The position numbers and the translations under genes were made by a program. 42,693 bases of DNA. Source: Neisseriales bacterium. Lineage in GTDB: Bacteria > Pseudomonadota > Gammaproteobacteria > Burkholderiales > UBA11063. The DNA lies in assembly GCA_008017155.1 (NCBI GenBank), contig SSGX01000019.1:1-42693 (forward strand), read 5' to 3'. The notes under the pieces are model-generated. The model saw nothing but the letters and a program-made list of their open reading frames with translations, ran no database searches and had not been told where the DNA came from. Positions 10,377 through 23,055 of this stretch are shown one piece after another. How positions within the stretch are numbered: position 1 is the stretch's first letter; every line of letters starts with the position of its first letter.

Positions 10377-11291
10377 TTAACAGTTTTCGTATAATTTACC
10401 ACGTGCTAGTCCAGGCTGGGTTTTGAAGCGTTTATGTAACCATAGGTACTGAGCTGGATGCTTCATAATCATGGTTTCAATGTAGCGGTTCATTCGTGTA
10501 ACATCAGCTATTTCATCTCCAGTCGGATATTTTTCCTTCCATGCTGGGAAGAGTTCAACCACAAAATGATTTCCTTCCCGATAGGTTGCCATCGGTACTA
10601 TTTCAGCATCAGTCAATTTTACCAGCTTTGGGAAAGTAGCCAGTGTAGCACAGTTTGGATGAGCAAAAAAAGGTACATATACCGAATCACGTTCATCCAT
10701 ATCCTGATCGGGTAGATAGTAAAACGGAATAAAGGTTTGTTTCATTTTACGTACAATTGTCCGTAATCCTTCCTGCCGAGAAAAAATCTCACCACCCTTA
10801 TCTCTGATAAAACGTAACCTAGCATTCTTGATTCGTTCTGTCAGATATTCATTGCGTTGTTGGGCATAAACACTATATCCGGGTGTTTCAAGAGTTAAGC
10901 GATTTGCTCCAATATCTAGCCCTAAAAAATGCGGTGCAAGATATACGACTGGGCGCTTGCCTCTAAACTGATCAAAATTTTCATAGCCACGTAATTTGAT
11001 TAACTTTCTTAATTTCTCTGGCGAAGCATAGAAAATCAACCCATAAACCAAGCTAAATCTTACCAATTCCTGAAAATGTTCGCGAATAAGTTGATGTTTT
11101 TCCTTATCATTCATGGTTGGAAAGCATAAGCTTAGATTCACTAACCCTACATTTCGACGTTTTTTCAGAAAGATATAGAGTAAATTACCAAGTCCAGTGC
11201 CTATCATATTTACTATTGGCATTGGAATCATGCTACATAGGCGGAAAAATCCTAATGCAAGATCAATAGGCAGTCGTTTTAACCAATTCAT
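10377..11291 (-). CDS. Lipid A biosynthesis acyltransferase family protein (LpxL/HtrB-like)
   Basis: Inner-membrane acyltransferase of 304 residues with one N-terminal hydrophobic helix. The catalytic HX4D motif is H121-F-L-G-L-D126 (APHFLGLDIG). The family adds a secondary fatty acid to Kdo-lipid A. Its start codon overlaps the stop of the upstream acyltransferase by 4 bp (ATGA), so the two are translationally coupled. A tandem pair of this kind is usual where lipid A receives two secondary chains. Which position each enzyme acylates cannot be told from sequence alone. Confidence 0.9.
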   Translation of the reverse strand: MNWLKRLPIDLALGFFRLCSMIPMPIVNMIGTGLGNLLYIFLKKRRNVGLVNLSLCFPTMNDKEKHQLIREHFQELVRFSLVYGLIFYASPEKLRKLIKLRGYENFDQFRGKRPVVYLAPHFLGLDIGANRLTLETPGYSVYAQQRNEYLTERIKNARLRFIRDKGGEIFSRQEGLRTIVRKMKQTFIPFYYLPDQDMDERDSVYVPFFAHPNCATLATFPKLVKLTDAEIVPMATYREGNHFVVELFPAWKEKYPTGDEIADVTRMNRYIETMIMKHPAQYLWLHKRFKTQPGLARGKLYENC

Positions 11292-12223
11292 TTAGCTACT
11301 ACTTCTTCAGGTTTTGGTTTGGCATTATCCGGATGGCGAAAACGGTCGTATGACCAATAATATTGTTCCGGCGTTTCACGAACTAATTTCTCAAGTTCTG
11401 AATATAATTCCTGCATAATATCATGAGTATCATCGTTACTTGGTTTAAATGGTATGCAACGCGAATGGAATCCTTTTTTAGTTCGGGTATTAGCAACTAT
11501 TACTACATGAGTATTTGGTATCTGACAAATCTTGGCTGCCAATGAGGTCGCATAAACATCTTGTCCGAAGAACTTAACCCATTCTCCATCACCACCGGAA
11601 GCTACATTATCTGGTAGAATCCCGATTGAACCACCAAATTTTAAGTGTTTCATCAAGCTTAATACGCCTTTACGATTAGTTGGTACTGGTGTAATGTTTG
11701 GTTCACTACGACCTTCAACCATGATTTCTTCTAAAACCGGATCTTTGGCTGGCTTATACAAAATCTGAATATCCATTGGTAGATAATACGAGAAATATTT
11801 TACCGCAACTTCAAAATTGCCAATATGCGGGGTTAGGAATACAATATTTTTGCCTTCCTCCATCAATCGCTTTACGGCATAGAAGCTTTCATCTACCTGA
11901 GATAATTTGGTTATACGTTTTTTATTCTTTTGCCAAGCAATTAATGCGGCTTCGGTAAAGGTCATTCCTAGTGCTTGTGCAGTTTTTTTAGTTAATTCCT
12001 CAACCGTTTCGGGTGTTGCGAGTCCAGTAATTAGCAAATTATGCGGTAATCTTTTAGCTGATTTTTTGGAAAACTTTAATGAGATTAGACCAATTGTTGC
12101 ACCTATCCAGCGGATTACTGATAGTGGCAGAAGTGACAACAATTTCATTAGGGTTGTGATAAAAAATTTTTTCATAAACAACAAGCGCTTACCGAGTTTA
12201 AAATTAAGCCTCAATTTTAGCAC
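11288..12223 (-). CDS. Lipid A biosynthesis acyltransferase family protein (LpxL/LpxM-like)
   Basis: Second acyltransferase of the family, 311 residues from a GTG start. Its motif is HX4E: H133-I-G-N-F-E138 (TPHIGNFEVA). The GTG at 12221-12223 has AAGGG 9-13 bases upstream. An internal ATG at 12173-12175 begins a more typical N-terminus (MKKFFITTLMKLLSLLPLS) but has no clear ribosome site, so the start is uncertain by 16 codons. It is coupled by a 4-bp overlap to the next acyltransferase gene and divergent from the symporter gene. Confidence 0.88.
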   Translation of the reverse strand: MLKLRLNFKLGKRLLFMKKFFITTLMKLLSLLPLSVIRWIGATIGLISLKFSKKSAKRLPHNLLITGLATPETVEELTKKTAQALGMTFTEAALIAWQKNKKRITKLSQVDESFYAVKRLMEEGKNIVFLTPHIGNFEVAVKYFSYYLPMDIQILYKPAKDPVLEEIMVEGRSEPNITPVPTNRKGVLSLMKHLKFGGSIGILPDNVASGGDGEWVKFFGQDVYATSLAAKICQIPNTHVVIVANTRTKKGFHSRCIPFKPSNDDTHDIMQELYSELEKLVRETPEQYYWSYDRFRHPDNAKPKPEEVVAK

Positions 12224-12296: not shown

Positions 12297-13487
12297 ATGC
12301 GTAAATTAGGCTTTGGGAATCAATGTTTATTAGCTTTGGTATTAGGGTTAGTCGCTGGGCATTATTTACCACAAAAAGTAGTAGATTTTATTGTTCCATT
12401 TGGGGATGGGTTTCTTCAGTTATTGAAACTAATTATTGTACCGCTTACCTTTTCAACTATTGTTGCTAGTTTCTCAAAGCTTGAAGATATGAGTCTAGTA
12501 AAAAGACTGGGTAGTAGAACTTTGTTATGGTTTGTAATAACTGCGCTTTGTGCTGCTACAGTTGGCATTATTGTTGGAAAGATAATTAATCCCGGCAATG
12601 GATTAACACTTGCTTTGGCAGCTACGGATTATCAACCACGCCAGATTCCAACGATAAGTAGTACCTTCCTAGATATGTTACCGGGTAATTTAATCGCACA
12701 GATAGCCAATGGCAAAGTCATCCCGGTAATCATCTTTGCGATTTTCTTTGGACTAGCACTGACTTCAACTGGTGAAAGAGGCAAAACGGTACGTACCTTC
12801 TTTGACGAATTTTCACTAGTAATGTTTAAAATTACTCGTAAAATTATCCGCCTATCACCTTATGGCATATTTGCCTTATTAACCGCGGTTGGGAATGAGT
12901 ATGGTTTAGATACGCTTTTACCGCTGGGTAAATTTATCGTTGCAATTTATATAGCCTGCTTTATTCAGCTAATAATCTATGCTTTATTGATTAGTGTGGT
13001 TGCCAAACGAAATCCAATCCGTTTTTTCAAAGAGTTTTGGCCAGCGATGATAACTGCATTTACAACATCTTCCAGTCTTGGAACATTGCCAGTTACCCTT
13101 GAAACCCTTGTTGATCGGGTAAGAGTTAGTGAACGAGTTGCAGGCTTTGTAGCGCCACTTGGTGCAACTATGAAAATGGATGGTTGTGGTGCAATTTATC
13201 CGGCGATTGTCTGTATTTTAACGGCTCAAGTATTTGGCATTGATTTATCCGCTACACAATATTTATTAATCGCATTAACTGCGGCAGTTGCAACAATTGG
13301 TACTGCTGGAGTACCTGGGACCGCATCAATTATGGCAACTGTGGTGCTAACCAGTGTTGGCTTACCTTTAGAGGGGTTGGCACTGGTAATTGGTATCGAT
13401 AAAATTATTGATATGATGCGAACTATGACTAACGTTACCGGAACTGGAGTCTGTGCTACTTTGGTAGATAAGACTTATAAGGAATAA
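12297..13487 (+). CDS. Dicarboxylate/amino acid:cation symporter (DAACS family)
   Basis: Inner-membrane secondary transporter of 396 residues, the normal length for GltP/DctA relatives, importing glutamate, aspartate or C4-dicarboxylates with H+ or Na+. The serine-rich re-entrant loop TTSSSLGTLPVT (about residues 258-269) and the later GTAGVPGTASIMA stretch are family signatures. It also has the conserved MKMDGCGAIYPA region and the end MMRTMTNVTGTG. Start ATG with GAAGGA. The J-domain gene begins 10 bases after its stop, so the two are probably co-transcribed. The substrate cannot be fixed further. Confidence 0.93.
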   Translation: MRKLGFGNQCLLALVLGLVAGHYLPQKVVDFIVPFGDGFLQLLKLIIVPLTFSTIVASFSKLEDMSLVKRLGSRTLLWFVITALCAATVGIIVGKIINPGNGLTLALAATDYQPRQIPTISSTFLDMLPGNLIAQIANGKVIPVIIFAIFFGLALTSTGERGKTVRTFFDEFSLVMFKITRKIIRLSPYGIFALLTAVGNEYGLDTLLPLGKFIVAIYIACFIQLIIYALLISVVAKRNPIRFFKEFWPAMITAFTTSSSLGTLPVTLETLVDRVRVSERVAGFVAPLGATMKMDGCGAIYPAIVCILTAQVFGIDLSATQYLLIALTAAVATIGTAGVPGTASIMATVVLTSVGLPLEGLALVIGIDKIIDMMRTMTNVTGTGVCATLVDKTYKE

Positions 13488-13497
13488 CATAGCATTC

Positions 13498-14262
13498 ATG
13501 AAGAATTATTATCGAATTCTAGGTCTAAGTATTGATGCAGAATACGAAGAAATCCGTGCTGCGTACAAAATACTTGCCCAGCAACATCATCCGGATAAGG
13601 GGGGCTCACAAACCGAATTTACCCTAATTCAGGAAGCCTATACTATCCTTAGTGATCCTAAAACTAAGCGGGTATATGATAATGATTTATTAAAATATAT
13701 TAGCGATCGGCAGCTTTCAACGGTAGCACGTTCTTCTGGTAATGGCTCCTCAATGTGGTTATGGTTAATGGGGATTTTTACTTGCGCTGCACTGGCATTT
13801 GCTTATTGGGCTTATCAGCAGCATAAGGAACAGGAGACTATAATTAATGCTTTAAAGAAACCTATAAATACAACTTCTTCTGCCCCTATTGCAACTACAC
13901 CTAAAAAGGCCAGACGTAAAGCTGTAACGCCTTCGGCAAAAAAAACTAATACGTCCAATCCAACGGCAACAGCAGCTACAAACAACAATGACTACAACCA
14001 ATTAAATGGTTATTCAGGAACGCTGTATCTCATTAATACTGGTAGTTTTAGTGATTTAAATACAGCTAAGGCGCGACAAAAACAGCTTACACAGTTTGGC
14101 TTTAGCAGCAAAATCCAGAAAATTAACGCCAATACTGAAGGAGATACCAGCTATAATGTCTTTATTGGACCATATCAGACTCTAGACAATGCCAATAAGA
14201 CTCTTGATGCACTAAATAAGCAAAATATTGATGCTACACTAGAGCAAGTAGTTAGTGAATAG
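13498..14262 (+). CDS. J-domain protein with transmembrane helix and SPOR domain
   Basis: 254 residues in three parts. Residues 1-66 are a J domain with the essential HPD at 31-33 (QQHHPDKGG), which stimulates DnaK ATPase. Residues about 86-104 form a single membrane helix (WLWLMGIFTCAALAFAYWA). After an Ala/Thr/Lys-rich linker, residues 174-250 form a SPOR domain (TLYLINTGSFSD, YNVFIGPYQTLDNA), which binds glycan strands stripped of stem peptides at division septa. The layout implies a cytoplasmic J domain and a periplasmic SPOR domain, as in FtsN/DamX-type proteins. A septum-targeted DnaK co-chaperone is inferred. I know of no named protein with this exact arrangement. Confidence 0.9.
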   Translation: MKNYYRILGLSIDAEYEEIRAAYKILAQQHHPDKGGSQTEFTLIQEAYTILSDPKTKRVYDNDLLKYISDRQLSTVARSSGNGSSMWLWLMGIFTCAALAFAYWAYQQHKEQETIINALKKPINTTSSAPIATTPKKARRKAVTPSAKKTNTSNPTATAATNNNDYNQLNGYSGTLYLINTGSFSDLNTAKARQKQLTQFGFSSKIQKINANTEGDTSYNVFIGPYQTLDNANKTLDALNKQNIDATLEQVVSE

Positions 14263-14417
14263 ACCTCTTTCCTAACTTGCTTCTTTAACTCTTATATGTT
14301 GTCATAAGGACGTCTGAGATACTCATGTACTTAGATCTACACTCTGCTTCTCAAAGCCCTTATTCTTCGTCTAAGAATGAAATAATGGGTTATGAAAGAA
14401 CTCTAATAAGGGAAAAT

Positions 14418-15011
14418 ATGTATCAGCCTAAATCTTTTATTGAAACAAATCAAGAAAAATTATATTCATTGATAGAAAATTATCCATTTGCTACCCTAAT
14501 TAGCAAAAAAGATGGTGAGATAGAAATATCTCATTTGCCATTATTACTTGATCGTGAAAATGGACAATTGCTTGGACATATTGCTAGGGCAAATCCATTA
14601 CTAGAGTATATTTTAACTGGGCAATCGGCGATAGCAATTTTTCAGGGTCCGCATGGCTATATTTCATCATCTTGGTATCAAGACCCTACGGATAATGTAT
14701 CAACGTGGAATTATGCAGTAGTCCATATTGAAGGAAAATTAGTTGCAGCTACTGAAATAGAGCTGGAAATATTGCTTGATCAATTATATTCTTTACATGA
14801 TAAAAGTGATCAATCAATTAATTGGCAAAACCCGAAAATATCTGCAAAATTGAACGGGATTGCTGGGTTTAAAATAAAAATAGAGAAAATTACTGGTAAA
14901 TATAAACTTAGTCAGAACCGCAGTACAGAAGATCAGGGGAGTGTTTTGAAGAATCTCCGAGAAACTAATCCAACATTATATGCAATTATGAAGGATATTA
15001 CAAACTCCTAG
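14418..15011 (+). CDS. PaiB-like FMN-binding protein
   Basis: 198 residues from the ATG at 14418, chosen because AAGGG lies just upstream and the protein then begins MYQPKSFIE, as PaiB proteins do. An upstream ATG at 14325 would add 31 residues lacking family similarity. The family has a split-barrel flavin-binding fold. Conserved features include ISHLPLLLDRENGQLLGHIARANP and GYISSSWYQDPTDNVSTWNY. PaiB of Bacillus is annotated as a negative regulator of sporulation and protease genes, but homologues in Gram-negatives have no proven regulatory role. No PaiA partner is nearby. Transcribed alone or after the J-domain gene. Confidence 0.85.
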   Translation: MYQPKSFIETNQEKLYSLIENYPFATLISKKDGEIEISHLPLLLDRENGQLLGHIARANPLLEYILTGQSAIAIFQGPHGYISSSWYQDPTDNVSTWNYAVVHIEGKLVAATEIELEILLDQLYSLHDKSDQSINWQNPKISAKLNGIAGFKIKIEKITGKYKLSQNRSTEDQGSVLKNLRETNPTLYAIMKDITNS

Positions 15012-21380: not shown

Positions 21381-21561
21381 TAGATGATGATAAATAAATA
21401 TAAGAATTTACATTTTCAAGGGAATCAGAGTAGATATTTACATGCTTGTAGTCAAAAAGCAACAATAGTCATTAGGGATAAAAAATTTTAGTTATCATAC
21501 TAATAAACTGAAATGTAATGTAATTTAGCCAAGTAAGGGATAATTTTATGGTTAATGTTCA

Positions 21562-21583
21562 TTGCAAATAAGAATCATTTGCA
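21562..21583. promoter_or_regulatory. Fur-like box upstream of the outer-membrane barrel gene
   Basis: TGCAAATAAGAATCATTTGC (21563-21582) is a near-palindrome with TGCAAAT on the left and ATTTGCA on the right and reads as a good Fur box. It sits 42-63 bp upstream of the barrel start codon and pairs with the P19-side box. Confidence 0.75.
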
Positions 21584-21624
21584 TTTATAATTAAGCCCGG
21601 ATAAGTACTGTTTATGAAAGATTT

Positions 21625-23055
21625 ATGATGACAAAAAAAATTCTTGCTGTTTTACTATCAGCAAGTACTTTTCTTGCCTATGCAGATGAGCAGCAGGTAG
21701 AGCAAGTATTGGTGCAGGATAAGGAGATAGAAAGCCAGCCAGAGACAGCGGATACAGGTTATATCTTTAGGGGTAACTATATTCAGAATCCATATATAGG
21801 GATGCCAAGTGGCGGTGGTACCCAAAATATAAGTGAAAGCGAATTCACTCGTGATAATGTGGCTCAGAAATGGTTTACTGATGGAACGTGGAATGTTTTT
21901 GGAGCTGCAAGTTATGTTAATCAAAATGGTGCAAATAATTATGGTTATGCAGTAAATATTTTTGGACAAACTGGTCAGGTTGCTGGCTTCTCATTTGGTG
22001 GATTGATGACTATAGCTAATCCATTTTTCAGTAGTCAGTGGAATCCAGCTGAAGCGGAGAATCAGGCGCAGGGACTCCCGGTTGCGCAACAAGTAACACC
22101 ACAAGAGTTATTTGCGGAATATCAGTATTCAGATATCATACAAGCAGATGCAGGATGGATAGGGATCAGTAATAGTCCGTGGATGACTTATTATCAGAAT
22201 AATGCATTAAATATGGTAACTTATCAGGGGGCACTGGTAAACGTAAATCCGGGTGGTGGTTGGCTACTAACTGGATTTGCGATTAATGGTGCGCAGCTTC
22301 TTGGTGAACAAGGATTTAGTCAACAAACTATGTACAATAGTGGCTTTGATAATGGTACCGGGACAGGAAACATCGGTGATGCTGGTAGTCCTCATACAAT
22401 TGCAGCAGGAGCAAGTTGGAATAGTCCAGGACAGATGTTAGGTTTCCGTTTATGGGGCTATGCATTTGCTGATTACGCAAACATGGCATATGCTGATACT
22501 ACAATAAAGCTACCAGTAAATGACGATCTTGGATTTACTATTGGTGCACAGGGTGCTATACAAGGGGAGAATGGAGAAGGAAATATTCTTAACAATAATG
22601 GTTATGGTAATAGTGTGAACAGTAATATGGTTGGGTTACAGTTAGGATTTAATTATTCAATATTTGGACTTCAGCTAGCTTATAATAATATCTGGGGACC
22701 ATCAGATGGCTATGAAGCTGGTGGACTAGTTTCACCATACACCTATCAATATGCAACTGATCCATTATATACAACTGGCTGGATACAGGGGATGGTTGAA
22801 AGATCATCTGGACAGGCATATAAGATTGCACCATCACTTACTTTACTCGATAATAATTTAGTCATATCACCAAGTTATCAATATTATGCAACAACGCTAA
22901 TTCCGGCTAGTAGTGAGTATGATATTCAAGTAAGCTATAGTGTTCCACAGGTTAAAGGATTAACCTTCTTTGGTGGTTATGGTTATGTTACAGATGCTGA
23001 TCCTGATGGCAATGGAGTTTATCAGGCTCAATTAATGGTGAGCTATTTGTATTAA
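21625..23055 (+). CDS. Predicted outer-membrane beta-barrel, iron-regulated
   Basis: 476 residues with a signal peptide (cleavage after LAYA, about residue 21) and then a Gly/Asn/Tyr-rich sequence of alternating strands ending in an aromatic residue (QLMVSYLY), as outer-membrane barrels do. There is no plug domain or TonB box that I can recognise, so it is more like a porin than a TonB-dependent receptor. It is divergent from the P19-Ftr operon and shares its Fur-like regulation, which suggests it passes iron, or a complex or cofactor needed for P19-dependent uptake, across the outer membrane. Two ATGs lie in tandem, with GAAAG upstream. I do not recognise a named family. Confidence 0.75.
   Translation: MMTKKILAVLLSASTFLAYADEQQVEQVLVQDKEIESQPETADTGYIFRGNYIQNPYIGMPSGGGTQNISESEFTRDNVAQKWFTDGTWNVFGAASYVNQNGANNYGYAVNIFGQTGQVAGFSFGGLMTIANPFFSSQWNPAEAENQAQGLPVAQQVTPQELFAEYQYSDIIQADAGWIGISNSPWMTYYQNNALNMVTYQGALVNVNPGGGWLLTGFAINGAQLLGEQGFSQQTMYNSGFDNGTGTGNIGDAGSPHTIAAGASWNSPGQMLGFRLWGYAFADYANMAYADTTIKLPVNDDLGFTIGAQGAIQGENGEGNILNNNGYGNSVNSNMVGLQLGFNYSIFGLQLAYNNIWGPSDGYEAGGLVSPYTYQYATDPLYTTGWIQGMVERSSGQAYKIAPSLTLLDNNLVISPSYQYYATTLIPASSEYDIQVSYSVPQVKGLTFFGGYGYVTDADPDGNGVYQAQLMVSYLY

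Follow-up and report, generated by a model that had tools for sequence, protein, structure and literature searches.

The window analysed here, a stretch of 42,693 nucleotides from the genome of a Neisseriales bacterium (G000; the other G numbers are relatives), carries a gene whose product is composed, from the N- to the C-terminus, of a J domain, one membrane helix, a disordered linker and a SPOR domain, and which we refer to as J-SPOR. The gene, its parts and its two neighbours are as follows:

12297..13487, + strand: sodium:dicarboxylate symporter (SDF) gene, Pfam SDF 416 bits, directly upstream with a gap of 10 bases
13498..14262, + strand: J-TM-SPOR gene (J-SPOR), ATG start, 254 aa, with full-length relatives
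13504..13680, + strand: J domain, residues 3-61, Pfam DnaJ 66.1 bits
13588..13596, + strand: HPD motif, residues 31-33, invariant in the 6 full-length copies and also present in the truncated G014 copy
13747..13818, + strand: membrane helix, about residues 84-107, from hydropathy in 6/6 copies and a model helix at 84-116
13819..14013, + strand: presumed periplasmic linker, about residues 108-172, fast-evolving, with pLDDT < 50 at 109-166
14017..14235, + strand: SPOR domain, residues 174-246, Pfam 46.1 bits, fold match to 6i09
14035..14037, + strand: Asn180, at the Gln site (RlpA Q270, FtsN Q251, DamX Q351), N in 7/7 J-SPOR copies
14128..14142, + strand: loop 211-215, A-N-x-E-G, with A211, N212, E214 and G215 invariant in the 6 full-length copies
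14155..14157, + strand: Asn220, at the Arg site (RlpA R309, FtsN R285), N in 7/7 J-SPOR copies
14161..14163, + strand: Phe222, at the site of RlpA R311 (basic patch), F in 7/7 J-SPOR copies
14325..15011, + strand: FMN_bind_2 protein gene, Pfam 149.5 bits, the downstream neighbour

A first-pass annotation of this DNA had read the gene as a J domain, a single helix and a SPOR domain united in one protein of 254 residues, and the profile searches agree with this architecture. The Pfam DnaJ match (E 3.1e-18, against a curated cut-off of 27.8 bits; 68.9 bits in the genome scan) covers all 63 model positions and, together with the HPD motif, places J-SPOR among the J-domain proteins. Within J-SPOR, no DnaJ_C or zinc-finger region was matched by Pfam up to E 1, and its sequence places the protein in class C of the J proteins, with a SPOR module added; stimulation of an Hsp70 is predicted. 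The SPOR match (E 6.1e-12) lies well above its curated cut-off of 21 bits, a threshold below which the first-pass reading would have failed, and profile and fold together assign the domain to the SPOR family (PF05036). Membership in FtsN is not indicated, as the NCBIfam model TIGR02223 gives J-SPOR 45.2 bits, below the cut-off of 107.65. A frameshift or a chimeric contig was considered as the source of the fused reading frame and ruled out, because the same frame is found in six genomes, recurring in the closed genome of G017 (2,820,660 bases, one contig) and in four others besides that of the window.

An AlphaFold2 model of J-SPOR, built from 6 sequences, has a mean pLDDT of 66.4 and a pTM of 0.34, so that the relative placement of its domains is meaningless. 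The model has a four-helix J domain, a separate helix at residues 84-116, low confidence (pLDDT < 50) at 73-86 and 109-166, and strands and helices in the order of a SPOR domain at 174-253. By Foldseek, the N-terminal part matches J domains of DnaJ, and for the C-terminal part the match is the SPOR domain of RlpA (6i09 and 6i05; for 6i09, E 3.3e-4 and a TM-score on the target of 0.77). All six full-length copies have a single outstanding hydrophobic stretch, with charge-free spans within residues 77-110; in the window's protein, the best 19-residue hydrophobic window is 84-102 and the charge-free span 79-109, and the G022 copy has a second hydrophobic window of up to 1.21 on the same scale. 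We infer a cytoplasmic J domain and a periplasmic SPOR-fold domain; the charges that flank the helix leave the topology unsettled, and those of the G007 copy point the opposite way.

In the J half, the positions of helix II, HPD, EAY and YD match those of the DnaJ of the genus, and the HPD motif reported by the first-pass annotation is indeed intact. J proteins help to set where Hsp70 works. The three Hsp70 matches of the closed G017 genome are DnaK (NF001413, 1026.8 bits, cut-off 648), HscA (TIGR01991, 804.6 bits, cut-off 708.55) and MreB, and G000 has three Hsp70 matches with similar scores; a DnaK of the kind presupposed in the first-pass reading is therefore available. HscC was not found among the Hsp70 matches of G017 or G000, and J-SPOR was not assigned to the DjlB/DjlC type. 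Since the HPD motif is intact and HscA is the sole other Hsp70 found, DnaK is the likely partner of J-SPOR; in G000, a gene for HscB (TIGR00714, 85.9 bits, cut-off 46.75) is separated from the HscA-like gene by 372 bases, which would leave DnaK for J-SPOR.

Full-length J-SPOR is present in 6 of 61 genomes (that of the window and 60 relatives), all belonging to the window's genus (G000, G017, G022, G007, G002 and G011), with identities of 92 to 45% for the copies in the other five genomes. The genus, as sampled here, consists of 23 genomes with 6 full-length and 2 partial copies, one of which, in G013, comprises only residues 168-253 at a contig end. In the other 15 no J-SPOR was found at E 0.001, and four of them (G001, G008, G018 and G020) are less than 80% complete. 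For 20 of the 23 genomes a tree was built from DnaK (G002, G008 and G018 have no DnaK match at 1e-150 and are left out). It places the carriers in one clade (support 100/99), which unites five full-length copies, the two partial ones and two genomes without J-SPOR. The gene thus occurs in 7/9 genomes of the clade and in 0/11 outside it, a distribution that parsimony explains with 2 changes on this tree when partial copies are scored as present. Hence J-SPOR is limited to a single clade within the genus and has been kept in most of it. The clade members that lack it are G005 (98% complete) and G020 (75%), and because G005 is nearly complete, J-SPOR is dispensable there.

The second partial copy, in G014 (G014:C117 about 21,500-21,833; L128/L008), is cut after about residue 48-49 and runs in frame into the apparent end of a neighbouring glyoxalase-like gene. 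It looks as if helix, linker and SPOR domain had been deleted, through either a natural deletion or an assembly error.

Between G000 and G017 the two ends of the protein have changed little. Residues 1-66 are identical, with 19 synonymous and 0 non-synonymous changes (dN 0, dS 0.71), and the SPOR part, residues 172-254, has dN 0.015 and dS 0.42, a dN/dS of about 0.04. The corresponding values are dN 0.069 and dS 0.69 for the juxtamembrane and helix part, and dN 0.185 and dS 0.82 for linker residues 109-171. The low dN/dS at the J and SPOR ends indicates that both end domains are constrained by strong purifying selection, and the linker, much less constrained, looks like a spacer.

The gene neighbourhood was searched for an operon that might give a clue to the role of J-SPOR, and none was found. 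The SDF gene adjoins J-SPOR in G000, G017, G022, G007 and, with the truncated copy, G014, which form one synteny block, and not in G002 or G011; this neighbour is probably functionally unconnected. In G002 and G011 a different gene lies upstream (the G002 one gives only a sub-threshold MlaE match) and another downstream (in G002 it matches a mechanosensitive-channel domain), and among the relatives compared the FMN_bind_2 gene stands beside J-SPOR only in G017. At six SDF loci compared by tblastn (E 0.001), J-SPOR was found only in that of G014. The SDF gene is followed in G012 and G016 by a reading frame that we take, by eye, to be an alanyl-tRNA synthetase, and in G005 and G020 by other frames; G005 has both the lpxL-like and the SDF gene in position, with no J-SPOR after the latter. 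As the neighbours are not conserved outside the one synteny block, gene context gives no client or pathway.

The first-pass annotation had gone further and placed the protein at the division septum by means of denuded glycan, and it is here that the SPOR half departs from expectation. The passages on the crystal structure of RlpA with glycan name Q270 and the arginines R302, R309 and R311 at the glycan site, with counterparts in FtsN (Q251 and R285) and DamX (Q351), and note that main-chain contacts matter to binding (PMC6895207); for DedD, Q147 is named (PMC7642682). We aligned 86 SPOR domains and compared the sites of Q270, R309/R285 and R311. The alignment comprises 7 J-SPOR domains (the 6 full-length copies and the partial G013 copy), 10 FtsN-like and 9 DedD-like domains, which together are all 26 SPOR matches of 11 genomes of the genus, and 60 domains from the phylum, hand-picked among the matches listed for 36 of 39 other genomes, with the weakest matches outside the sample. 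FtsN-like and DedD-like are our own labels, the G017 proteins scoring 59.6 and 36.2 bits against the FtsN cut-off of 107.65.

At these three sites J-SPOR has N, N and F in every copy. The Gln is retained in 10/10 FtsN-like, 9/9 DedD-like and 51/60 phylum domains, the other phylum residues being N in 4, E in 3, S in 1 and R in 1, and the R309/R285 site is occupied by K or R in all 19 paralogues of the genus and in 50/60 phylum domains. The loss of the R311 residue says little, as that site is basic in only 30/60 phylum and 0/10 FtsN-like domains. Only one of the 60 phylum domains is without both Q and R/K, and that one has Arg at the Gln site; the four with Asn at the Gln site all keep Arg; and the eight without a basic residue at either Arg site all have Q, so that some SPOR domains can do without basic residues there. 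The canonical Gln and Arg, typical though not universal in PF05036, are therefore both absent from J-SPOR, and the mean net charge of its SPOR domain is -1.0, compared with +4.6 in the phylum set, +3.7 in DedD-like and only +0.8 in FtsN-like domains. The domain has conserved residues of its own, and in the loop at 211-215 the partial G013 copy keeps A, N and G and not E.

The exchanged site makes glycan binding by J-SPOR less likely. The likelihood is lowered rather than reduced to nothing, because N is a conservative replacement for Q, seen in 4/60 phylum SPOR domains; Asn keeps an amide and can still hydrogen-bond. Since the residues that grip the septal wall sugar are exchanged in every copy examined, the division-site address expected of a SPOR protein appears doubtful here, and because the module is conserved and yet non-canonical, its ligand has probably changed. 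In G017, G022, G007 and G011 an FtsN-like and a DedD-like SPOR gene are also present, which makes J-SPOR an extra SPOR protein in these genomes; besides J-SPOR, the incomplete genomes G000 and G013 have only an FtsN-like and G002 only a DedD-like SPOR gene. One Amidase_3 gene, whose product could make denuded glycan, is found in each of the 4/4 genomes searched.

As regards the origin of the SPOR half, mean identity is 25.8% to the FtsN-like domains of the genus, 21.8% to the DedD-like ones and 20.2% to the phylum set, and the SPOR tree unites the J-SPOR domains in one group (100/99) whose stem is long, at 1.15 changes per column. A grouping with the FtsN-like domains is neither supported nor rejected (p-AU 0.42), and the tree leaves J-SPOR unplaced.

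We also looked for the fusion elsewhere, as a search for J plus SPOR across the proteobacteria had been suggested in the first-pass annotation, and found it only within the window's genus. A scan of 84,980 species with peptide patterns from the N-terminus of the J domain, which tests for the J-SPOR family rather than for the architecture, returned 25 loci; the family accounts for five of them, 4 full-length and 1 truncated. None of the other 20 has a SPOR domain in Pfam at E 0.01, two of these loci (L087 and L101) reaching the end of the available DNA; three (L095, L096 and L097) are J proteins with an apparent membrane helix, recognised by eye, and no SPOR domain. Profile searches found at least 4 full-length J-SPOR, all in the genus, among the matches listed (E to about 1e-12) for 300 genomes of the order; in 369 genomes of the class, the window's own and one further match with DnaJ and DnaJ_C; and in 398 of the phylum, again the window's own, together with two matches that have a J domain and no SPOR domain (the first by Pfam, the second recognised as DnaJ by eye). 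In the 61 genomes no frame outside the genus has both J and SPOR among matches to E 0.001, and 0/224 matching plasmid records cover 80% of the J-SPOR query. Thus no J-SPOR fusion was found outside one clade of the genus, in a search that covered phyla other than Pseudomonadota only through the J-domain N-terminus patterns and the plasmids and hardly tested them for the architecture. The first-pass annotation knew of no described protein with this design, and our literature search likewise found none that unites a SPOR domain with a J domain or DnaJ; in passages that name both, they are separate proteins, and the architecture may be among those surveyed for prokaryotic J-associated domains by Barriot et al. 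(2020; cited in PMC8215388).

Several known proteins share parts of the design. DamX of E. coli, whose cytoplasmic domain is described as large and likely folded and whose periplasmic linker as long (PMC7642682), resembles J-SPOR in its succession of cytoplasmic domain, membrane anchor, linker and SPOR domain; the likeness rests on layout and SPOR, as the cytoplasmic domain of J-SPOR is a J domain, and DamX keeps the Gln (Q351; PMC6895207) where J-SPOR has Asn. DjlB and DjlC of E. coli likewise combine a J domain with a membrane anchor, but are described as tail-anchored, without a periplasmic domain, and as working with HscC (PMC8215388), whereas J-SPOR has a SPOR domain. FtsN is an inner-membrane protein with a C-terminal SPOR domain, but J-SPOR scores far below its cut-off and has a J domain as its N-terminus, and the FtsN-like protein of G017, itself below the cut-off, is the better candidate. 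With RlpA of P. aeruginosa J-SPOR shares the SPOR fold and neither the three glycan-site residues nor the enzyme part.

We favour, with moderate confidence, a bitopic inner-membrane J co-chaperone that recruits DnaK, with a re-specialised SPOR module setting the place or the wall state of recruitment. The N-terminal J domain would face the cytoplasm and stimulate DnaK, and the helix and a flexible linker would lead to the periplasmic SPOR-fold domain, which would decide where, or in what state of the wall, DnaK is recruited under the membrane. Re-specialisation is suggested because residues of the published denuded-glycan site have been replaced by others that are conserved in their turn; most likely the wall ligand has changed or is a partner protein instead, or septal glycan is bound in a modified way. 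Clients would likely be the cytoplasmic parts of membrane or envelope-synthesis proteins at the place of recruitment. More tentatively, and with the odds against it, the protein may couple wall and chaperone across the membrane, its clade-retooled SPOR domain reading another wall or envelope signal and, through the one helix, gating or placing DnaK activity in the cytoplasm.

If the SPOR domain were instead an ordinary one that binds denuded septal glycan, the J domain would bring DnaK to the divisome and remodel division proteins, essentially as the first-pass annotation proposed. The clear SPOR match, the likeness of the model to the glycan-bound RlpA domain, the Amidase_3 genes and the DamX-like layout (PMC7642682) are all in keeping with this; the N, N and F of all seven copies, at sites where the 19 other SPOR domains of the genus keep Q and K/R, and the negative net charge (the FtsN-like mean being itself low) make it unlikely. 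Of that proposal the architecture and the HPD motif stand, a DnaK is present and an Amidase_3 could supply the glycan; septal placement by denuded glycan, while possible, lacks support in the form proposed; enrichment at the septum by any route falls a little short of an even chance. Less probable still, indeed improbable, is that the SPOR domain is the remnant of a wall tether without an address, and the protein a general inner-membrane J protein like DjlB and DjlC. The exchanged ligand residues would suit such a plain anchor, as would the J proteins with an apparent helix and no SPOR domain at the three scan loci; a mere tail, however, should drift as the linker does, whereas purifying selection on this domain is strong and N180, N220 and A-N-x-E-G are invariant residues of its own, and the HscC with which DjlB and DjlC work was not found in G017 or G000.

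Were the favoured co-chaperone tied to the wall, it would give bacterial chaperone work a wall-defined address, and if the coupling across the membrane were true, it would be a J protein for which wall state serves as the address. A SPOR domain in which an altered ligand site has been conserved in nature also allows one to test directly which residues give such domains their septal character. Aquella oligotrophica has been described from an isolate (PMC6612550), and both questions are therefore testable.

Three further observations concern other genes. In the window, positions 10377-12223 on the reverse strand hold two genes of the lipid A acyltransferase type (189 and 119 bits), which lie in tandem, as they do in relatives, and overlap by 4 bases. 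A 110-aa frame in G017 (L073, G017:C1:2058095-2058208) contains HPDKGG within a J domain whose Pfam match is confined to model positions 15-56. In a second case of a J-type domain added to a membrane protein of the genus, a DnaJ-like domain stands at the C-terminus of a PlsY glycerol-3-phosphate acyltransferase (L066, G000:C57, ORF 790-1719 of the locus; L065, G017, reverse strand; G3P_acyltransf 179.9 bits and DnaJ 47.6 bits in the G017 copy), with a degenerate motif: the G000 copy lacks HPD, and the G017 copy has only PD left of it.
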